Positions 1,665 through 20,364 of a stretch of 20,539 bases of DNA are shown here, piece by piece. Below the pieces are notes generated by a model. That model was not told the DNA's origin, ran no database searches, and saw only the letters and a program-made list of their open reading frames with translations. The translations under genes and the position numbers were made by a program. The first letter of the stretch is position 1; each line of letters opens with the position of its first letter. The stretch lies in the IMG/VR virus record IMGVR_UViG_3300036651_001490, positions 1 through 20,539 of that record; one strand, written 5' to 3'. The stretch is from a virus.

Positions 1665-2077
1665 TCGACGTCGGAGCCGTCCCACTGCATCTGCCCCGGC
1701 TCGGCGTTCCCGTCGAGCGTCTTCCACTGGCCGTGGACCGAACACCCGCGGATGTGTGCCGTGTAACGGGGCTTGTCGGTCGAGTCGAACGCGGCGCCGC
1801 ACCGGCAGATGAACACATGCATGCCCGGTGTCCGATGCACCACCTCCGACGGCGGGGGTTCGATGTGGCCGACAACGCCGTGCTCGTCGAACAACGGCTT
1901 CGGTGGCGGGTTGTCGAACGGTGGGGGTTCGATGCCGAGGTCGCGGAACGCTTTCGCCGCCTGGACATACTTCGCGTACGACTCGACCTTCCCTTCCGGT
2001 AGCAGGACAGGCATCTCGACGTCCGCGTGGACAACCTCCACGACAACGCCGGGCGGGGCGAGCACATACCACGTCAC
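1652..2077 (-). CDS. hypothetical protein with C-terminal C2HC-type zinc motif, 141 aa
   Basis: The protein begins TWYVLAPPGVVVEVVHADVE, a small beta-rich module. A charged segment and a Pro-rich linker (PPPFDNPPPKPLFDE, about 51-65) follow. A compact zinc-finger-like segment comes next: FICRCGAAF (C91, C93), then H108, C112 and H115. This resembles a single C2HC/C2H2 finger that could bind DNA, RNA or protein. GTG at 2077 overlaps the RusA-like stop (GTGA) and is preceded by AAGGAG at good spacing. In-frame sequence continues upstream without a stop, but it lies opposite the RusA-like gene and reads as noise. It ends in GVR, as two other genes here do. Confidence 0.75.
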   Translation of the reverse strand: MTWYVLAPPGVVVEVVHADVEMPVLLPEGKVESYAKYVQAAKAFRDLGIEPPPFDNPPPKPLFDEHGVVGHIEPPPSEVVHRTPGMHVFICRCGAAFDSTDKPRYTAHIRGCSVHGQWKTLDGNAEPGQMQWDGSDVEGVR

Positions 2078-2439
2078 GACGACTCCTTCGAGGTCAACGA
2101 CACGACCACCAGGCCGTTCCCGATGTACAGAACCGGGTCGGCGACAGTCACATATTCGAACGTGTCGTCGGGCCAGCAGCCGGCGTCGACGAGGCCGTCG
2201 ATGATGGGTTTCATGGTCGCGATGTAGTTGTGTGGGTCGCGTCGGCGGACGGTCCGGCACGGGAATGTTGTCGTCACGGTCGACGGCGGCATCGCCCGTG
2301 CAGATGGCCCGCCGAGCTGGCACGCCGCGTAATACGCTGCGTTGCGCCACAACTTCACGGCCCGCGCCCGGTTCGACCAGTGCATCCTGTCGTTCAACGA
2401 CAGCAACCTGCACGGCGCCGCGAACGACAGGACGGTCAC
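2074..2439 (-). CDS. RusA-like Holliday junction resolvase
   Basis: The 121-residue size matches RusA-family endodeoxyribonucleases (about 120 aa). The family pattern is visible: an N-terminal strand with LNDRMHW; a basic RRRDPHN segment (about 65-71); KPIIDGLVDAG (77-87); and WPDD (89-92). These give the acidic cluster D68/D81/D91-92 expected to bind Mg2+. RusA enzymes cleave four-way junctions as homodimers, resolving recombination intermediates before packaging. The neighbouring RecT/exonuclease operon fits. GTG at 2439 overlaps the preceding stop by 4 nt; a weak GGGGC-type Shine-Dalgarno precedes it. I am fairly sure of the family and less sure of full activity, since the N-terminal part is divergent. 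Confidence 0.8.
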   Translation of the reverse strand: MTVLSFAAPCRLLSLNDRMHWSNRARAVKLWRNAAYYAACQLGGPSARAMPPSTVTTTFPCRTVRRRDPHNYIATMKPIIDGLVDAGCWPDDTFEYVTVADPVLYIGNGLVVVSLTSKESS

Positions 2440-2576
2440 GATGCCTGCCCCTCGGGGAGGGTGACCCAGCCGTCGCCGTCGCACGAATGGCAGAACGGAT
2501 CCCCTTTGACGGACACGAAGCGGAGCGAACCGCGGTCGCATCGGCGCGGGCACCGAACCCTCTCGGGGTCGTTCAT
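2436..2576 (-). CDS. small zinc-ribbon protein, 46 aa
   Basis: The protein has two cysteine knuckles, CPRRC (residues 9-13) and CHSC (29-32), about 16 residues apart, with the second followed by DGDGW. This is the layout of a minimal zinc ribbon. Such mini-proteins are common in actinophage early operons and usually have no known role. The ATG at 2576 sits in the ATGA overlap with the HNH gene stop, inside one copy of the repeated TCATCGGACGCCT sequence. Its stop overlaps the RusA-like GTG. An in-frame extension to 2816 exists but lies opposite the HNH gene and has shadow-type composition. Confidence 0.7.
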   Translation of the reverse strand: MNDPERVRCPRRCDRGSLRFVSVKGDPFCHSCDGDGWVTLPEGQAS

Positions 2577-2585
2577 CGGACGCCT
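2573..2585 (+). repeat. junction repeat TCATCGGACGCCT, copy 2
   Basis: Identical 13-mer at the HNH / 46-aa zinc-ribbon junction, again encoding GVR-stop and the overlapping ATG. Identity with copy 1 extends to 15 nt. Confidence 0.85.
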
Positions 2586-2860
2586 TCCCAGTGGTGGCGT
2601 AGCCAGCCGTGTTCGTACGACCGGGTCGGGTAGTGGTGAATCGTTTCGTGGCAAGGGGCGCATACCCACAGGAGGTTCCCTGGCTCGTCTCCGCCGCCCT
2701 GTGACCGGGGGACGATGTGGTGTGCGTGAGCGCCGCGGCGGGTGCAGCCCTCGGCGGCGTTCGCTTCGCACCGTTCGTCGGCACGCGACGCGATGAACTT
2801 GCGGACCTGCCACCACCCCGGCCGGACCCGGGGACGGGAACGCAACGGGGTGCGCTTCAC
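2573..2860 (-). CDS. HNH endonuclease, 95 aa
   Basis: This is a canonical small HNH fold: AHHIVPRSQGG (45-55) supplies the catalytic His pair (H47/H48), N62 lies in DEPGNLLWVC, and CAPCHETIHHY (67-77) supplies the final His. C31, C39, C67 and C70 are spaced to bind a structural zinc. The enzyme should make nicks or breaks in dsDNA with a divalent metal. Phage HNH genes often sit beside terminase, where they help cos cleavage. This one is instead in the early replication/recombination operon, so it may be a free-standing homing-type nuclease or a recombination factor. GTG at 2860 overlaps the preceding stop (GTGA). The N-terminus is Arg-rich. Confidence 0.9.
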   Translation of the reverse strand: MKRTPLRSRPRVRPGWWQVRKFIASRADERCEANAAEGCTRRGAHAHHIVPRSQGGGDEPGNLLWVCAPCHETIHHYPTRSYEHGWLRHHWEGVR

Positions 2861-3021
2861 GACAGCGCCTCGAGCAGCGTGTCGTGGGCTTCAGCGAGGA
2901 ACATCAATAGATCTTCGGTGTTCCGGGCACCCATGACGCGGGCGATCAGTTCGGCTTCGGTGCGGGCTTTGCCGATGTGGCGGGCCGCGGTGATGACGCT
3001 CTCCCGGTCGATGAGCGTCAT
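2857..3021 (-). CDS. small helical hypothetical protein, 54 aa
   Basis: The sequence begins MTLIDRESVITAARHIGKA and ends in an amphipathic helix (LLMFLAEAHDTLLEALS). Composition is protein-like (balanced charges, Leu/Ala helices) and unlike the Arg/Pro-rich shadow frames. The ATG at 3021 overlaps the preceding stop by 4 nt, and its TGA overlaps the HNH GTG by 4 nt, so it fills exactly the gap between them. I recognise no family. It may be a helical DNA-binding or adaptor protein; there is no evidence beyond fold prediction by eye. Confidence 0.7.
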   Translation of the reverse strand: MTLIDRESVITAARHIGKARTEAELIARVMGARNTEDLLMFLAEAHDTLLEALS

Positions 3022-3302
3022 GCGAGGTCTGCCCGTTCACGCGGCTCGGCGAGCTCGAACGGCACTTCGTCGTCGTCGCGTTCACCGAGGATTCGGTGAA
3101 GGAGCGCCCGGCCTTCCGACGTGATGTGTGTGAACGTCCCCTCGGTTGTCCCGCAGTGCGGGCAGAGGACTTCCCACGCCTTCACCGGGACGCCGTGATC
3201 GGCGCCGATGATCCGACGGTCGGTGTGGTCATGGCGCGAGCAGCGCGGGCAGCCACGATGGCCGTTGAGGTGGTCGTGGTCCTTCGCGTCGATGCGGATC
3301 AT
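3018..3302 (-). CDS. zinc-ribbon protein, 94 aa
   Basis: The N-terminal half carries two knuckles, CPRC (18-21) in a His-rich context and CPHC about 30 residues later (VLCPHCGTTEG), the classic two-knuckle zinc-ribbon spacing. The C-terminal third is acidic (ERDDDEVPFELAEPRER). Zinc ribbons of this kind bind nucleic acid or transcription/replication proteins; no specific partner can be named. The ATG at 3302 lies in the ATGA overlap with the replication gene stop, inside a copy of the TCATCGGACGCCT junction sequence. It is translated directly after the initiator and before the 54-aa gene. Confidence 0.75.
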   Translation of the reverse strand: MIRIDAKDHDHLNGHRGCPRCSRHDHTDRRIIGADHGVPVKAWEVLCPHCGTTEGTFTHITSEGRALLHRILGERDDDEVPFELAEPRERADLA

Positions 3303-3311
3303 CGGACGCCT
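3299..3311 (+). repeat. junction repeat TCATCGGACGCCT, copy 3
   Basis: Identical 13-mer at the initiator / 94-aa zinc-ribbon junction, with the same GVR-stop and overlapping ATG. Confidence 0.85.
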
Positions 3312-4168
3312 CGGATCGCGGCGATGCGGGCGGCGCCTTCGGCCATCGGCAACGCGTCGGGGACGTCGATGGGTTGCCATTCGGCTAGGCCGAACTCGGG
3401 GCCGTCGAGTTCCGTCAGGGGTTCGACGGTGGGGATTTCTGTCCACCGCTCGTGGCGGAGCCAGCGGACTGCGTCCTCGGGGTAGCGGCCGTTCGGGCCT
3501 GTCGATGTGGCGACGTGGGCGGGGAGCGCGGCCATTGCGGCGTCGCGTTTGGCCTGGCTGAGCCGGCGCCAGACGGTCTGTGCGTCCTTCTTCGAGCCTT
3601 TCGACCCGTTGCGTGCCGGGTACTGCCGCCAGAACGGGTCGAAGCGGTCATCGCAGTCGACGGCAGTCGACGAAGCGTTTTCGGTTAGAGGTACCGGAGG
3701 TACCGAAGGGATAGGGATAGGGATAGGGATAAGGGCATCCTGAGGCATATGCGTTTCGCATCCGTTCGCACTGCTCGTCGCATCGTCATCGGATGCGTTC
3801 GCAATGCAAATCGCATCGTCATCGGACTGCGGTGCGGGTACGTCACGTCTGCCCCACCGCGCTTCGGCTGCCTTGCGTCCCGCTTCCGAACGCGACTTCT
3901 GAGGACGGTTCCAATCCGCGTAGTCGTGCACCCGGTAGTCGTCGTCGCCGACGTCTTCCCACAGACCGACCAACACCAGCCGCTCCGCAAGATGCGCCGG
4001 CCGCGGCCGATCCGACAAACGACCAATCTGCGCCTTCGGGATCACCCCGTCGGTGCCGTACCGGCGGCAGTAGCCGAGCCCGCAGACGAACAACCACGCC
4101 GCGTCGCCCCCGGCGCGTGCGACCTTCGGATGGTCGAAGAACCCGTCGTCCAAGTACACCCAGCTCAC
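3299..4168 (-). CDS. phage replication-initiator-like protein, 289 aa
   Basis: Residues 1-90 resemble the winged-helix N-terminal domain of phage replication proteins: WVYLDDGFFDHPKVARAG, then WLFVCGLGYCRRYGTDG, then a predicted helix-turn-helix around RLSDRP. A basic segment (KSRSEAGRKAAEARWG, 91-106) follows. The linker (about 110-175) is acidic and repetitive, with SDDDAICIANA next to SDDDATSSANG and an Ile-Pro repeat at 147-154. The C-terminal domain (176-245, FDPFWRQYPARNG...WLRHERW) matches the 'FW..YP...A...W' region seen in phage primosome and DnaD-like proteins. The role inferred is origin binding and helicase loading. GTG at 4168 has AGGAG upstream and a GTGA overlap. The linker DNA contains iteron-like repeats, described separately. 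Confidence 0.75.
   Translation of the reverse strand: MSWVYLDDGFFDHPKVARAGGDAAWLFVCGLGYCRRYGTDGVIPKAQIGRLSDRPRPAHLAERLVLVGLWEDVGDDDYRVHDYADWNRPQKSRSEAGRKAAEARWGRRDVPAPQSDDDAICIANASDDDATSSANGCETHMPQDALIPIPIPIPSVPPVPLTENASSTAVDCDDRFDPFWRQYPARNGSKGSKKDAQTVWRRLSQAKRDAAMAALPAHVATSTGPNGRYPEDAVRWLRHERWTEIPTVEPLTELDGPEFGLAEWQPIDVPDALPMAEGAARIAAIRGVR
3708..3731 (+). repeat. GGGATA hexamer x4 inside the replication gene
   Basis: Four perfect tandem copies of GGGATA (TATCCC on the coding strand, encoding Ile-Pro repeats), followed by AGGG. The tract lies in the disordered linker of the initiator-like gene, close to the 33-bp repeats. Confidence 0.9.
3764..3829 (+). repeat. 33-bp tandem iteron-like repeat, two copies
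   Basis: Copy 1 is 3764-3796 and copy 2 is 3797-3829. Each starts GTTCGCA, then a variable 7-nt block (with TGC conserved), then an identical 16-mer TCGCATCGTCATCGGA. A degenerate partial copy (TTCGCATCC) precedes at 3755-3763. The coding strand gives the 11-residue repeats SDDDAICIANA and SDDDATSSANG. The position within a replication initiator gene recalls the origin iterons inside lambda O. Confidence 0.85.
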
Positions 4169-4323
4169 TTCGCGCGCTCCTGCTCGAAGCGGGCGACGTC
4201 ACGCAACGCGGCGCCCATGTCCCGGTACCCCTCGGCGATCTTCTCGCCGGTCGCCGCGTCGCGTATGTCCCACTCCCATGTGTATGGGGCCACGTAGTGC
4301 TTCTCGATCGTGTACCGGCTCAT
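4165..4323 (-). CDS. small hypothetical protein, 52 aa
   Basis: The sequence begins MSRYTIEKHYVAPYTWEWDI and continues with a beta-hairpin-like stretch (RDAATGEKIAEGYRDMG) and a C-terminal charged helix (RDVARFEQERAK). It looks like a compact alpha/beta mini-protein with aromatic residues spaced as in beta strands. The ATG at 4323 overlaps the preceding stop by 4 nt and has a GCAGG Shine-Dalgarno. Its stop overlaps the initiator GTG. I recognise no family. Confidence 0.75.
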   Translation of the reverse strand: MSRYTIEKHYVAPYTWEWDIRDAATGEKIAEGYRDMGAALRDVARFEQERAK

Positions 4324-4694
4324 CGGGACCTGCCGTAGACGCCGTGGCCGGCCTGGTCGGCCACGAGTTTCACCAACGACTGCGCCCCGGACAGCTGCCC
4401 GAGGACCAACTCCTTCTTCGCTTGGAACGTCTTCACGTCCGCTCGGGCCAACAGGAGGTCGTTGAGCTCGTTGATCGCCTCGTACTCGGCGAGTTTCTCG
4501 GCGGTGCGTTCAGCGGTCTTGTCTGAGCCCATGCGGCGGCGTTGGAACGCGGCGCCGGACTTGCGTTTGTAGGCGACTTCGGCGGCGGCTTCGGTGTGGA
4601 GCGCGGTGGCGAGGTCGGCGATGAGGGTGTCCATCTGCTGGGTGGCGTGGACGATGACGCGTTCGACGTCATGCGGGGAGACGGGGTCGCTCAC
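4320..4694 (-). CDS. hypothetical coiled-coil protein next to RecT, 124 aa
   Basis: The protein is largely helical and charged. Its first helix (HDVERVIVHATQQMDTLIADLATALH) is followed by a basic patch (AYKRKSGAAFQRRRMGSDKT) and a second long helix (KTAERTAEKLAEYEAINELNDLLLARAD) with coiled-coil character. GTG at 4694 overlaps the RecT stop (GTGA), and its TGA overlaps the 52-aa gene ATG. The position immediately downstream of RecT suggests an accessory recombination or DNA-binding factor, by association only. I know of no enzymatic motif here. Confidence 0.75.
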   Translation of the reverse strand: MSDPVSPHDVERVIVHATQQMDTLIADLATALHTEAAAEVAYKRKSGAAFQRRRMGSDKTAERTAEKLAEYEAINELNDLLLARADVKTFQAKKELVLGQLSGAQSLVKLVADQAGHGVYGRSR

Positions 4695-5782
4695 GAGGTG
4701 CCGCGTGCCGTGTCCATCGCGTCGGCTAGGGGCCCGAGCGCAGTTTTCGATTTGCCGGTGGGTGCTTTCACGCCGAATAGGTCGGCGAGGGCCTGTAACT
4801 GCGGGGCCGAGCAGGTGGCGAGGTAGTCGGCCGAGGCGACGTCGTCGGGGAGGGCTTCCCATGTGTCGCCCGCGTCGTCGCCGGACGGCGCGGGCGGAGA
4901 CGCCGTAACGGCGTCACTGACGCCCGCCGCTGCCTCACGGTCAGCGGCGTCTCCGCCCGTCACCTCTTGGAGTTCGGGCACGTCGATCGCGTCGTCGTAG
5001 TCCCGTTCCTCGTCGAGCGTGTCGACGCTGTAGTCGGTGCGGACCGTCTCGTCCCGGTTGAAGGCTTGGGCCATCTCCGTCGACAGCGGCAGGTATGGGG
5101 CCATCGCCCGGATCACGGTCTTGCGGGCCATCGCGTCGAAGTCGTCGTGCCACGGCCCGGACGGCTTGTCGGGGTTGTACGACTTCGACCGGTCCCGAAT
5201 CCGGGTGATGTCTTCCATCGGCATGACGAGGAAGTAGAAGCCGCCGTCGTGGAAGTGCGCGACGCCGTACGACGCGACGGCTTGGCCGCGGTCCCGTAAC
5301 GTCGGCGTGTGCCGCAAGACCGGGGAGAGGCCGTAGCTGTACTCGAAGTCGTCGTGCTCGAACACGGTGCGCGCTTCGATCGACTTGATGTTTCCTGACC
5401 GGCGGGCCAGCTCGAGGATCCCCTTGTAGCCGATGACGAACTGGGCTTCGTTCCACTTGCGCCACTCGCCGTCGACCTTCGCGTTGCGTGTGAACGGGAC
5501 GAGGTAGGCGTGGCCGAGGGGGCCGAGTTCCAACCCGAGTTGTGCGCACGTCATGAGTGCGCCGAGGAGTGATTCCTGGGTGCACGCGGCGAGTTTCGGG
5601 TTGGTGCGGATCGTCGTCAACGCGAGACGGGCGAGCCGGTCCGGTGTCATGTTCGCCGCGGCCGGCAGGGCGCGTTGCAACTGCGGGGTCTGCTCCTCGA
5701 TGAGTTGCATGATCGTCTTGCGTTTCGGGGCGCCGTCGGGGTTGGCGCGTTCGATCGCTTGGCTCAAGCGTTCAGTGCTCAC
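4691..5782 (-). CDS. recT: RecT-family single-strand annealing protein
   Basis: This 363-residue RecT/Red-beta-type annealase pairs complementary single strands generated by the partner exonuclease. The RecT core spans about residues 22-270. Recognisable blocks are TIMQLIEEQTPQLQRALP; the segment ALTTIRTNPKLAACTQESLLGA; LGLELGPLGHAYLVPF; QFVIGYKGILELARRSG; and the C-terminal AMARKTVIRAMAPYLPLS. After about 275 the chain becomes acidic and Ala/Pro-rich, then ends in a short helical SAP-like segment (YLATCSAPQLQALADLFGV), an unusually long tail for RecT. GTG at 5782 is chosen because it overlaps the preceding stop (GTGA); farther upstream sequence in frame is shadow of the previous two genes. 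One small zinc-ribbon gene separates it from the exonuclease. Confidence 0.95.
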   Translation of the reverse strand: MSTERLSQAIERANPDGAPKRKTIMQLIEEQTPQLQRALPAAANMTPDRLARLALTTIRTNPKLAACTQESLLGALMTCAQLGLELGPLGHAYLVPFTRNAKVDGEWRKWNEAQFVIGYKGILELARRSGNIKSIEARTVFEHDDFEYSYGLSPVLRHTPTLRDRGQAVASYGVAHFHDGGFYFLVMPMEDITRIRDRSKSYNPDKPSGPWHDDFDAMARKTVIRAMAPYLPLSTEMAQAFNRDETVRTDYSVDTLDEERDYDDAIDVPELQEVTGGDAADREAAAGVSDAVTASPPAPSGDDAGDTWEALPDDVASADYLATCSAPQLQALADLFGVKAPTGKSKTALGPLADAMDTARGTS

Positions 5783-6021
5783 GACTTGATGCCGATCCAA
5801 TGGTTCGTGTCGGCAAGGCAGGCGGGGCAAAGGTCGGCGGTGACGACCATGTTCGACATGCGGCCGAACTCGTACGGGAACGTCTCCACCCGGCCCCATC
5901 CGACCCAGCACGTCGGCCCCTGCACCGGTGTCCCGTCGTCGACGATGACCTGCTCGTCGTGCGTGTCGCAGCGGTCGCAGCGGATCGACACGGTGTAGGT
6001 GTGGGTGTTGGCTTGCATCAC
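5779..6021 (-). CDS. zinc-ribbon protein between exonuclease and RecT, 80 aa
   Basis: Two cysteine knuckles, CDRC (residues 15-18) and CPAC near the C-terminus (LCPACLADTNHW), flank a beta-rich middle (VIVDDGTPV, GRVETFPYEF). That is a knuckle-strands-knuckle layout typical of zinc beta-ribbons. The start is GTGATG at 6021/6018; the GTG overlaps the exonuclease stop by 4 nt. Its stop overlaps the RecT GTG, so all three should be made together. The consistent location between a nuclease and its annealase hints at a coupling factor, but no biochemical role can be read from the sequence. Confidence 0.75.
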   Translation of the reverse strand: MMQANTHTYTVSIRCDRCDTHDEQVIVDDGTPVQGPTCWVGWGRVETFPYEFGRMSNMVVTADLCPACLADTNHWIGIKS

Positions 6022-6989
6022 TCGCCGCCTTTGAGGATGCGCAGCGGCCGCACCAGCGACGTGGCGGTGAACTCGGCGGCGATGTGGGGGTGGGCTTTGC
6101 GGAGGGCGTCGACGTCGAGGCGGGCCTGGGTGTGCGCCTTGTATCCGAGGATCGGCGCACCGTTGTAGGTGGCTTGTTCGTTACGGCCGATCGCGGCCCG
6201 CAGCCGGTTCGCCAACGCCTTCACGCGTGTCCCGATGAGGGATTCCTCAGCCTTCGCGGCGATGTACTCGTGGTACACGTCGTGCAACTGGTCGTCGAAC
6301 TCGACTGCGGTGTCGTCGATGTGGGCCGGGTACAGGGCGTTCAGGGCGTCGGTCGTCGATTGGGACGCGTCGGCGGCGGGCATGATGCCGGCGTCGACGT
6401 AGCCGAACCAGAACCGTTTCTCCTGGTCGACGATCGTGGCGATGAGGTCGGCGTCGCGTTCGATGTAGACGTGGCGGAACGTGTTCCCGCCGATGAGCGC
6501 GGCGAGGTATGCGTAGTCGAGGCCGGTGACGGCGAGGTAGTGCATGGTTTGGGCGAGGGCCCGGTTGGGGACGTCGCCGTCTTTCCAGTCCTTCGCCAGC
6601 CACGCTGATGTGGTTTTCAGTTCGAGGACGCCGACACGGCCGTCGTGGTCGGTGACGAACCGGTCGGGGGTGGCGAGCATGAATGGCCACGCGCGGGACC
6701 GGTACAGCATCCGCGGGTCGGTGACGGTGAGGCCGGTGCGTTCCGCGAATTCGGCGGCGACGACCGATTCGAGCTTGCGGCCGAAGCGCATTGCTTCGGT
6801 TTCTTCGACGAGGGAGAGGCCTTCGGCCTTGTCGAGGTAGACGGCGAGGCGGGATTTCATCGGGTCGGCGCCGAGGACGGCGAGGCAGTCGGAGCCGGTG
6901 ATGCCGGCGCGGCGTGCCTCGAGCCAGGTGGTTTCGTCGGCTTCGTCGAGGGTGAGGATGGTTTCGGCGGCGGGGAGCGTGTCGATCAT
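6018..6989 (-). CDS. YqaJ-type (lambda Exo-like) recombination exonuclease
   Basis: This 323-residue PD-(D/E)XK exonuclease would chew 5' ends to give 3' single strands for RecT. Family blocks are present in order: WLEARRAGITGSDCLAVLG (22-40); MRFGRKLESVVAAEF (67-81) with E74; FMLATPDRF (103-111) with D109; and GVLELKTT (120-127) with E123 and K125 forming the catalytic triad. AQTMHYLAVTG (146-156) supplies the conserved Gln/Tyr helix. The C-terminal 100 residues are helical with a LDVDALRKAHP segment. ATG at 6989 overlaps the preceding stop (ATGA). The in-frame extension to 7364 is rejected because it runs through the regulator gene and the promoter region. Confidence 0.93.
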   Translation of the reverse strand: MIDTLPAAETILTLDEADETTWLEARRAGITGSDCLAVLGADPMKSRLAVYLDKAEGLSLVEETEAMRFGRKLESVVAAEFAERTGLTVTDPRMLYRSRAWPFMLATPDRFVTDHDGRVGVLELKTTSAWLAKDWKDGDVPNRALAQTMHYLAVTGLDYAYLAALIGGNTFRHVYIERDADLIATIVDQEKRFWFGYVDAGIMPAADASQSTTDALNALYPAHIDDTAVEFDDQLHDVYHEYIAAKAEESLIGTRVKALANRLRAAIGRNEQATYNGAPILGYKAHTQARLDVDALRKAHPHIAAEFTATSLVRPLRILKGGE

Positions 6990-7261
6990 GCGACCGACCC
7001 CATCTCGGTCAGGTACTTGATCGTCCGTTCGATGTGGAGGTTCGCTTCCTCGATTTCGTGGTCGCGGTGCGCGATGAGGCCGTCGATGATCGACCGGGCG
7101 GCGTAGAGGCGGCGGGGGCGGTGCGTGTTGCCGCTTTCGAAGACGGGGGTGAACCAGCCGTCGCGGCACCAGAGCGCGAAGCGGTTTCTTGACATGCCGG
7201 CGGCGGCGGCGGCGTCGTCGACGGAGAGGATGAGTTGCGGGGCGGTGTCGTGGTCGGCCAT
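6986..7261 (-). CDS. small helix-turn-helix regulator / excisionase-like protein, 91 aa
   Basis: This is the first gene of the leftward early operon. Residues 11-60 read as a MerR/excisionase-type winged helix: LSVDDAAAAAGMSRNRF..WCRDGW, then a wing and RRLYAARSIIDGLIAHR. A C-terminal helix (DHEIEEANLHIERTIKYL) may dimerise. It is divergent from the repressor, the place expected for Cro or Xis; I cannot tell which. The ATG at 7261 is preferred to a GTG at 7291, although neither has a Shine-Dalgarno. A good minus-strand -35/-10 pair predicts a transcript starting at or next to that ATG, so translation would be leaderless; the GTG codon lies inside the promoter. Confidence 0.8.
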   Translation of the reverse strand: MADHDTAPQLILSVDDAAAAAGMSRNRFALWCRDGWFTPVFESGNTHRPRRLYAARSIIDGLIAHRDHEIEEANLHIERTIKYLTEMGSVA

Positions 7262-7298
7262 AGCGGTGAGTATGACGGGGAACCCCGGCACGAGTCAA
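7262..7298 (-). promoter_or_regulatory. leftward early promoter, apparently leaderless
   Basis: On the minus strand, TTGACT (7298-7293) is followed by an 18-nt spacer and CATACT (7274-7269), then 7 nt to the ATG at 7261. The predicted start of transcription (7262 or 7261) falls on the start codon. The spacer holds the inverted repeat CGGGG-AA-CCCCG (plus-strand 7276-7287), a plausible operator that would block polymerase. Confidence 0.6.
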
Positions 7299-7458
7299 GA
7301 ATCTAGGGGTGTGGATATCATCTTGGCAGATGTCCGCCTGACGAGGGTCAGCTAGACTGTCCACAGAGGCCGTCTTGATTTACACAGCCTGTGCACGTAT
7401 TGTCATGGAGACGGGCGGAAGTAACCTCCGTAGGGACTAGAGCAAGCGAGGCAGGAAC
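7299..7458. promoter_or_regulatory. divergent control region with inverted repeats
   Basis: No gene is visible here. The region separates the early operon from the repressor. Beyond the two promoters it contains three short inverted repeats: CTGAC-N4-GTCAG (7338-7351), CTGT-CC-ACAG (7357-7366) and CACAG-C-CTGTG (7383-7393). The last two share CACAG/CTGTG-type half-sites and are the best candidates for operator sites of the repressor or the opposing regulator. Confidence 0.5.
7375..7410 (+). promoter_or_regulatory. rightward promoter for repressor-integrase
   Basis: TTGATT (7375-7380), a 17-nt spacer and TATTGT (7398-7403) give a good sigma70-type promoter with a predicted start near 7410, leaving a leader of about 49 nt before the repressor ATG. 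The spacer contains CACAGCCTGTG, an inverted repeat that could allow autoregulation. Confidence 0.6.
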
Positions 7459-7848: not shown

Positions 7849-8807
7849 ACACGCTCGTCGCCCGGAGTGAAATGCCGCAGCATGCGCAGCATTTGCAGAC
7901 ACAACTGACAGGTGCCACGTTGGCTGTGTCTACGACCGGGGGGGTCGACGTGCGTGCGGAAGTGGAACGGTACGTAGCCGAGAAAGTAGCCCTAGGGGAT
8001 TACAGCCCCCAGTCGGCGGTCCAAGTCGCGTCGGTCCTCCGCCGCTTCTCCGTCGGCGTCGGCGACATACACCCCGGCGAACTCACCCGCAGCCACATCA
8101 CCGCCTACCTCGCGTCGCAGACCGGGAACGCACGCACGCAACGGAACCGCCTCTCCGCGATCCGCACGTTCACCGCGTGGTGCCACGCGAACGACATCAT
8201 CGGCAAAGATCCCGCGGCGGCGATGAAATCGACGAAAGTCCCCGTCGGCGAATCCCGGTTCCTCGAGCCGGACGAGGTCACCCTCGTCCTCGCCGAGGCG
8301 AAGTCGCCGCGGGATCGGCTGTTGATCCTGCTGCTGGTCCAGATGGGTTTGCGGCGCGGCGAGGCCGCCGATATCGACATCGAAGACATCGACTTCGCGG
8401 AACGCCTCCTCGCGGTGCACGGCAAAGGGTACCGGGGCGCGGTGTCACGGGTGGTGTCGATCCCGGTGCAGGCGTTCGAAGCGTTGCGGGCGTTCCTCCA
8501 CGCGGAGCCGGTGTTCTCCGGGCCGCTGCTGCGCAACTACCGAGGGGGACGCATCTCCCGCAACAAGGTGTCGCAGATCGTCGCCGCCGCGATGTACGAC
8601 GCCGGGGTGAAGGCCAGCCCGTACGACGGCCGTTCCGCGCACGCGCTCCGGCACACGATGGTTCAGCACCTCGTCGATGCCGGCAAAGAGCTCCGCGACA
8701 TCCAAGCGTTCGCGGGGCATGCGTCGATCCAGACGACCGAGTTGTACGCCCGCCGCAAGATCGCGGTCGACAAGCTCCGCGCTGCGTCCGAGGGCCGCAC
8801 CTACTAG
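7845..8807 (+). CDS. int: tyrosine recombinase (phage integrase)
   Basis: This 320-residue integrase would catalyse attP x attB recombination. An N-terminal SAM-like core-binding domain (about 37-125, EVERYVAEKVALGDYSPQS... to HANDIIGKDP) precedes the catalytic domain. Catalytic residues are all present: Arg170 in MGLRRGE, Lys194 in HGKGYRG, His266 and Arg269 in HALRH, His292 in AGHASIQTT, and nucleophile Tyr301 in LYARR. It looks intact. There is no long arm-binding N-terminal domain, so arm-type sites may be simple. The GTG at 7845 is chosen for its 4-nt overlap with the repressor. ATG at 7872 has a GGAG 4 nt upstream and is a real alternative. The gene should be co-transcribed with the repressor. 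Confidence 0.93.
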   Translation: MNTLVARSEMPQHAQHLQTQLTGATLAVSTTGGVDVRAEVERYVAEKVALGDYSPQSAVQVASVLRRFSVGVGDIHPGELTRSHITAYLASQTGNARTQRNRLSAIRTFTAWCHANDIIGKDPAAAMKSTKVPVGESRFLEPDEVTLVLAEAKSPRDRLLILLLVQMGLRRGEAADIDIEDIDFAERLLAVHGKGYRGAVSRVVSIPVQAFEALRAFLHAEPVFSGPLLRNYRGGRISRNKVSQIVAAAMYDAGVKASPYDGRSAHALRHTMVQHLVDAGKELRDIQAFAGHASIQTTELYARRKIAVDKLRAASEGRTY

Positions 8808-19476: not shown

Positions 19477-20364
19477 TCATCGGTATTCGTCGGTGACGGC
19501 GAAGCCGGCTGCGACGAGTTGGGTCTTGGTGTTGTCGTCGACGTCGGTGGAGCGGCCGCCTGGGTAGATTTCGGTTGCGGTGGCGAGGTCGTCGGTGGTG
19601 GGGCCTTCGATGGTGATGTAGGCGCCGTTGACGCGGAGGACGGTCGCGGCGCGTGGCGCTGCCCGGTAGTGGGCGGCGAGGCGTCGGCCTTGGCGGCTGA
19701 GGCGCTGTTCGATGGCTTCTTGGGCGGACACGGCGGCTTTGTCGTTTGACGCGACGAGCGGCGGGGTGAAGACGTGGGCGAGGATCGCGGCGTGTCCGTT
19801 GGCGGCGGCGATGAGACTGTCGAGGGTGACCGCGGCGGTGCCGGTCACGGTGGACAGCGAGAATGTGCCGGTGGCGTTGGCGGTGACTCCGGCCAACGTG
19901 ACCGTGGCGGCGGCGTTGGCGCCGACGCCGACTGACGCGGCGGAGGTGGCGTTGCCGAGGACAGGCGCCGCGGTGCCGGTTTCGCCGATCTTCCCCGCCG
20001 CAACCGCAGTCGCGGCGGCGAGGGTCACCGCAGACGTGCCAGTCACAGCGACGATGCCGGTCGCTGCCGCCGTGATTCCGGCCAAGGTGACCGCGGCGGT
20101 GGCGTTGAGCGTGACGGTGCCGGTAGCTGTCGCCGTCGCGGCTGCCAGCGACACGGCAGCGGTCCCGGTGACCGCGACGACGCCTGTGGCCGATGCCGTC
20201 GCGTTGGCGAGGGTCGACGCCGCAGTGCCCTTCACTCCCAGCGTCCCGACCCCCGACGCCGTCACCCCAGCGAGGGTCACCGCCGCGCTACCGGTCACCA
20301 CCGCGGGGAGCGGCTGCTGGCTGAGGTGCGCCCTGATCGGGAACGAACGACCGAAACGGGCCAT
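19477..20364 (-). CDS. Ala/Thr-repeat virion protein with paralogous C-terminal domain, 295 aa
   Basis: Residues 22-190 are about eight tandem copies of a 20-21 residue repeat with the consensus VTGTAAVTLAxATAxATG, expected to form short beta strands in a stacked or fibrous array. Residues 197-295 (VFTPPLV, EAIEQRLSRQGRRLAAHYR, GAYITIEGPTTDDLATATEIYPGG) match the last 97 residues of the gene at 14483-15256. Together the two genes form a small paralogous family around the tailspike gene. Probable tail or capsid decoration protein. ATG at 20364 directly abuts the TAG of the previous gene with no spacer. Confidence 0.75.
   Translation of the reverse strand: MARFGRSFPIRAHLSQQPLPAVVTGSAAVTLAGVTASGVGTLGVKGTAASTLANATASATGVVAVTGTAAVSLAAATATATGTVTLNATAAVTLAGITAAATGIVAVTGTSAVTLAAATAVAAGKIGETGTAAPVLGNATSAASVGVGANAAATVTLAGVTANATGTFSLSTVTGTAAVTLDSLIAAANGHAAILAHVFTPPLVASNDKAAVSAQEAIEQRLSRQGRRLAAHYRAAPRAATVLRVNGAYITIEGPTTDDLATATEIYPGGRSTDVDDNTKTQLVAAGFAVTDEYR
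19797..20301 (-). repeat. about eight 60-63 bp coding repeats
   Basis: These encode the repeat array (consensus VTGTAAVTLAxATAxATG). Copies have diverged at DNA level, indicating old duplications held by protein-level selection; copy number could vary between related phages. Confidence 0.8.

Follow-up and report, generated by a model that had tools for sequence, protein, structure and literature searches.

A cassette of DNA repeats lies within the gene for a predicted replication initiator, in the stretch that encodes the linker between the two domains of the protein, and comparison of its sequence across relatives makes it very probable that this cassette is the phage's origin of replication. 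The gene stands in a 20,539-nucleotide stretch (the window), a 20.5-kb virus record without a completeness estimate. RusA-like, RecT-like and RecE-like proteins, a methyltransferase, an integrase and a repressor are encoded around it, indicating that the window contains a temperate phage's early genes. The RusA-like, initiator, RecT-like and RecE-like genes are grouped at 2074–7364 on the minus strand, and the phages Phinally and Anatole have a comparable neighbourhood. Along the gene, iterons come first, then a (TATCCC)4 array and then a hairpin (Table 1).

Table 1. The initiator gene of the window, the regions of its protein and the elements of the candidate origin
Feature	Position in window	Strand	Basis or remark
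Replication initiator gene, 289 aa, holding the candidate origin	3299–4168	−	Profile matches to PHROG 3926 and PHROG 2447
N-terminal winged-helix domain and basic helix (residues 1–107), predicted iteron binder	3848–4168	−	AlphaFold2 model
Iterons: 33-bp repeats and partial copy; five TGCGA cores	3755–3831	−	Tandem-repeat and 6-mer analysis
C3N3 array: (TATCCC)4 on the coding strand; (GGGATA)4 and a fifth GGG on the plus strand	3707–3735	−	Sequence motif
Hairpin GGTACC-TCC-GGTACC	3690–3704	−	3 bp past the last C-run, coding strand
C-terminal region, presumed to recruit the primosome or helicase	3302–3670	−	Matches to PHROG 270 and 9327

The N-terminal domain of the protein matches PHROG 3926 (E = 1.3e-23) and PHROG 2447 (E = 3.3e-23), both annotated as 'replication initiation protein'. 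Residues 91–249 match the replication initiation and primosomal protein families PHROG 270 and 9327, and related C-terminal regions occur in other loci. In MrSmee, Schmidt and Phrux, a gene for a DnaB-like helicase adjoins that of the initiator. The AlphaFold2 model of the N-terminal domain (mean pLDDT 89.8) has a winged helix-turn-helix followed by a basic helix at residues 91–107. A Pfam scan of the protein gave no family, RepA_N included, the RepA_N domain was likewise absent from all seven relatives scanned, and a profile search of the PDB gave no match. When the predicted fold of residues 1–82 was compared with the PDB, the RepA_N structures 4pql, 5kbj, 4pt7 and 4pta scored Z 7.1–7.4, tied with the winged helices of MCM8, Cdc6/ORC and LexA, and Foldseek gave E of about 0.1–0.3 against the RepA_N fold. 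Since winged-helix similarity to known initiators does not discriminate among these proteins, we dropped an identification as RepA_N by fold.

The first-pass annotation of the window had reported two 33-bp tandem repeats with an identical 16-mer, a degenerate partial third copy and four GGGATA hexamers between the two domains of an initiator-like protein, and all of these are present, between the N-terminal domain and the C-terminal region. The 33-bp copies span 3756–3788 and 3789–3821, with the partial copy ending at 3831; they are 82% identical in that register and identical at 28 of 33 positions in the best one, the longest identical run being 16. TRF assigns the repeat 2.3 copies and a score of 101, the top tandem-repeat score in the window. 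Both copies and the partial copy are made up of five TGCGA sites (leftmost plus-strand bases 3756, 3766, 3778, 3799 and 3811), which read along the gene are spaced by 12, 21, 12 and 10 bp; five within 60 bp compare with at most two elsewhere in the window. Repeated 6-mer pairs in the linker number 30, against 7.4 in dinucleotide shuffles and reached by none of 100 shuffles, and the linker's count of helically phased repeats is the highest of the window (15 versus 6 elsewhere). Degenerate repeats, several of them 63 bp apart, also occur at 19794–20298, within an open reading frame (19477–20364) rich in Ala, Val and Thr.

That annotation had counted the hexamers and the 33-bp repeats as one iteron-like set, a description that fits the 33-bp repeats; the hexamers are best read as an element of their own, a C3N3 array on the coding strand and G3N3 on the other. 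Exact GGGATA copies begin at 3708, 3714, 3720 and 3726, and with the fifth GGG at 3733–3735 they form a G-quadruplex sequence motif (at least four G-runs of at least three, with loops of 1–7 nt, on one strand). The array is 50% GC, and a scan of the whole window found no second C3 or G3 array. The TGCGA sites at 10–21 bp and the hairpin had also gone unrecorded. In the window the hairpin is short and its predicted DNA fold weak (−4.2 kcal/mol, z = −1.5), not significant when taken alone; outer arms TTCGGT/ACCGAA at 3680–3685 and 3702–3707 may lengthen it.

Repeats in a coding sequence may reflect the peptide: a flexible, proline-rich, acidic linker could have grown by replication slippage, with its DNA having no role. 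The linker does look disordered and is rich in repeats, and peptide repeats predict some 12-bp spacing. Against a null of resampled synonymous codons, the period-33 identity of the window gene is significant (P = 0.0018), with the 16-bp run (P = 0.06) and the excess of 6-mer pairs (P = 0.065) only marginal. Given these mixed results, the argument is carried by the family and not by the single gene.

A search of IMG/VR with the initiator and with RecT found no relative close to the window phage; every inference here therefore draws on distant ones, with about 30–35% identity in the N-terminal domain. These are numerous: tblastn with the window initiator matched 97 actinophage records, and 615 phage records match the N-terminal domain. 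The phages have little in common outside that domain, and the first eight homologs proved too divergent for their alignment to be scanned. In nearly all of the seven relatives inspected first, short repeats followed by a tandem array of 4–6 bp units lie just 3′ of the N-terminal domain. These elements are non-coding in Arthrobacter phage Sarge, Mycobacterium phage Piper2020 and Propionibacterium phage Anatole, where the gene ends before them. Relatives collected by the N-terminal domain alone (80 loci from IMG/VR and 73 from bacterial genomes) keep repeats in place while the repeat sequence and the encoded peptide change, the outcome that the first-pass annotation had proposed to look for.

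Of 161 loci searched for periodicity alone, whatever the sequence, 86 have arrays; CCC is present on the coding strand in all units but two, and just four of the arrays are located elsewhere. For statistics we used 135 non-redundant loci, chosen by the N-terminal domain only, and defined an array as at least four runs of CCC-N2–3. Such an array lies 300–600 bp from the start in 93 of the 135 loci, compared with 0–2 (of about 132) in any other 300-bp bin, none on the opposite strand and 0.43 in dinucleotide shuffles. The first-pass annotation had named relatives with no linker repeats as evidence against an origin; about 30% of loci (42 of 135) lack the strict array, some of them having one just outside the bin or a degenerate one and some Streptomyces loci only the hairpin. 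The number of runs peaks at five, with loops of 2–3 nt, and the gaps are 2 or 3 nt in 395 of 403 cases where chains allow gaps of up to 3 nt and in 402 of 435 where they allow up to 7 nt. Units in the relatives are mostly CCCGA or CCCGT, 80% GC, with two-C units in place of CCC in Sarge, Arib1 and locus L124. The presence of an array is not simply tied to base composition, as 11 of 13 loci at 50–60% GC carry one.

The association also holds in the reverse direction. Of 85 (CCCGA)4CCC arrays in IMG/VR, 54 share their locus with the initiator N-terminal domain, nearly always encoded 350–700 bp upstream and on the same strand; the remaining matches are mostly a different, often multi-copy intergenic repeat. 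A second, apparently unrelated (CCCGA)n array with no initiator N-terminal domain nearby was seen in L181, L183, L184, L201, L202, L207, L222, L224, L228 and L238, sometimes in two or three copies per contig. Schmidt has a single array in 43 kb, within the initiator. Jinkies has an additional C3N2–3 array at 44362, away from the initiator. Only four plasmid records contain the N-terminal domain, at least one of which looks like a phage-plasmid, and among three examined only that of Saccharopolyspora pogona has a clear C-array and hairpin; we therefore dropped plasmids as independent proof.

Upstream of the array, the relatives carry iterons. Repeated 6-mer pairs average 25.3 just upstream of it, against 7.9 in shuffles and 8–9 in control segments. 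The raw density of 6-mer repeats was discarded as a marker because it is non-specific within whole genomes, where helical phasing and the array discriminate better. The iteron sequence is specific to each lineage, and the spacing peaks at 11–12, 22–24, 33–36 and 45–48 bp, extending to the family the earlier remark that the 33-bp period amounts to about three helical turns. Spacing of 11–12 bp scores 92, versus 8.6 in shuffles and 32 under the synonymous null, and 11-bp spacing alone occurs in 42 loci versus an expectation of 5.8 under reshuffling of synonymous codons. As 11 bp is no multiple of a codon, the spacing follows the DNA helix and not the reading frame.

Constraint at the level of DNA is seen in the array as well. 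When codons were resampled with the peptide held fixed, the array persisted in 7% of draws (an expected 6.5 of 92 loci) and was lost in 93%. In 89 of 92 loci, third codon positions in the linker are poorer in GC than those elsewhere in the gene. An origin of the repeats in the peptide is contradicted by this loss on recoding, by arrays of period 5 and iteron spacing of 11 bp that ignore codons, by the strand and position specificity of the array and by the non-coding copies, including a cassette detached from the initiator gene (below). We regard it as highly improbable.

The detached cassettes occur in two loci, L177 and L225, whose initiators keep the N-terminal domain and the C-terminal region but have a short linker without an array (checked directly in the L177 gene; the L225 record encodes a near-identical protein). 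In L177, GTTCG sites spaced by 11, 11 and 22 bp, five CCCGA units and a hairpin lie 6.2 kb from the initiator and outside recognised genes, 'non-coding' here meaning only that no conserved gene is recognised, as short open frames cross the cassette. L225 has the same arrangement, with its parts in the same order, and between the two loci both arms of the hairpin have changed together, a compensatory pair change. The cassettes are at 8394–8416 in L177 and 3135–3157 in L225, the initiators at 1523–2200 in L177 and in L293. These loci amount to a natural experiment and may offer a ready-made minimal candidate origin. The first-pass reading of the window as an embedded origin gains from this comparison, through repeats at the same place in relatives, non-coding copies and cassettes about 6 kb from the initiator.

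A perfect hairpin with a stem of at least 7 bp follows the array within 50 bp in 46% of loci, compared with 1.6% in shuffles and 1.1% in a downstream control, at a median distance of 3 bp and with stereotyped loop cores (CTAAAG, CTACGG, CTAACG and CTGACG). In six Streptomyces and Kitasatospora loci (L140, L142, L143, L146, L147 and L154), about 530–560 bp past the initiator start, the C-array is degenerate and the hairpin is kept (for example, AGTACTTCCTACGGAAGTACT), so that in these loci the hairpin may matter more than the array.

Hairpins and C-rich tracts might instead regulate the gene, either as an operator at which the initiator binds its own gene or as a C-rich tract and stem-loop acting in the mRNA. 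Autoregulation by initiators is common, the elements lie within a transcribed gene, and the hairpin would form in RNA too. An operator in mid-gene would be odd, however, and at the cassette we found no promoter-like or terminator-like site and no known RNA family in Rfam. Pairing that RNA would tolerate is not enriched either: the mismatched pair beside the stems is C-A in 22 of 75 cases and G-T or T-G in 5, with no excess of G-U-type pairs. In L177 and L225, moreover, the whole cassette stands apart from the gene with its parts in the same order. Regulation without origin function is therefore an unlikely account.

Iterons and N-terminal domains vary together. Classes of iteron were assigned by half-site, and pairs of loci whose N-terminal domains are at least 60% identical share a class in 94–100% of cases, against 36% by chance; the agreement is supportive and not decisive, as this simple rule could class only 62 of 189 loci, leaving out the window, and part of the agreement stems from common descent. 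Iteron class is linked most closely to the alignment columns of residues 97–112, the basic helix after the winged helix. By contrast, 790 of 991 pairs with N-terminal domains at least 50% identical have no detectable homology in the C-terminal region, indicating that the N-terminal domain and the candidate origin travel together while the C-terminal region is exchanged. These patterns suggest a module of N-terminal domain and origin that is exchanged as one and combined with C-terminal regions of various kinds.

The initiator might also bind the cassette in another capacity, such as packaging, recombination or incompatibility, while replication starts at a different site. The RecE, RecT and RusA genes lie close in the window, and GC skew, which the first-pass annotation had proposed as a check, gives no sign of an origin: the cumulative curves of two complete phages, Jinkies and Schmidt, pass the initiator without an inflection, and skew was dropped as evidence. 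Yet the cassette is tied to the initiator N-terminal domain and not to a terminase or recombinase, and its layout matches the experimentally known origins of lambda in O and of pSK41 in rep (PMC3349717, PMC7466680, PMC5703833). We give such a function only the slimmest chance.

For an origin at this site, we propose that iterons spaced by whole helical turns (about 11–12 bp) would be bound cooperatively by the N-terminal winged-helix domain encoded there. The strand-specific CCC triplets, recurring every 5–6 bp, would be where the duplex opens or stays open, in the place of the AT-rich stretch of lambda, possibly aided by formation of a G-quadruplex on the G-rich strand. The small hairpin would mark the entry of helicase or primase, and the swappable C-terminal region would recruit the primosome. 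Tentatively, in these high-GC phages the array may act through a G-quadruplex or through a lattice of C-triplets for single-strand binding, replacing the melting of AT-rich DNA in duplex opening. The lattice explains the array equally well, since a quadruplex would tolerate wider spacing and since two-C units, or the hairpin alone, occur in some relatives. A further thought, that CCC is recognised by primase, was abandoned because we found no usable statement on it in the literature.

Phages of many actinobacteria share this plan of spaced sites, C-rich repeat and hairpin, and the resulting sequence rule predicts where replication starts in hundreds of actinobacteriophages and prophages, for which we found no mapped origin in the literature. 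It also raises the testable question of how an origin opens without AT-rich DNA, and such origins might serve in vectors and synthetic replicons for Gordonia, Arthrobacter and Mycobacterium smegmatis.

Among known systems, the direct sequence family of the window protein is that of the PHROG 2447 and 3926 initiators of actinobacteriophages, for which the open-access literature gave no published origin, iterons or array. Miko and Rachaly are RepA-dependent extrachromosomal mycobacterial prophages for which an origin within repA or immediately 5′ of it has been suggested, by analogy with lambda; for Miko, repA with 171 bp upstream suffices (PMC7157519). The suggested placement resembles that in the window, unlike the repeat content, as the authors found no repeats in the regions they examined (PMC7157519); their RepA may belong to a different protein family.

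The lambda origin, drawn on as a parallel by the first-pass annotation, lies inside gene O and consists of four 18-bp iterons in mid-gene and an adjacent 38-bp AT-rich tract (PMC3349717, PMC7466680). The window initiator, with no detected sequence relation to lambda O, is likewise predicted to have an N-terminal DNA-binding part and a C-terminal helicase-side part, and its gene holds iterons between the two with a distinct element adjoining. The parallel fails at that element: unlike lambda, the iterons lie on an 11–12 bp grid, and the AT-rich tract is replaced by a C3N2–3 array (GGGATA/TATCCC and 50% GC in the window, CCCGA/CCCGT and up to 80% GC elsewhere) and a hairpin. This regular array of G-quadruplex type is the new part, for which we found no describing paper in the open-access literature; its role in unwinding is offered only as a hypothesis.

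The gene also resembles rep of pSK41, a RepA_N initiator whose winged-helix N-terminal domain binds Rep boxes central in rep, whose linker peptide is dispensable and whose C-terminal domain contacts primase (PMC5703833). At the sequence level, the window gene shares the central repeats of binding-site type, and the predicted fold of its product overlaps 4pql, 4pt7, 4pta and 5kbj over residues 1–82, with a score that other winged helices tie. It differs in having no Pfam RepA_N match and in its C3N2–3 array and hairpin, where Rep boxes hold A+T-rich tracts. In the pPR9 chimera, the N-terminal domain and origin have been replaced as one block by a phage-like version (PMC5703833).
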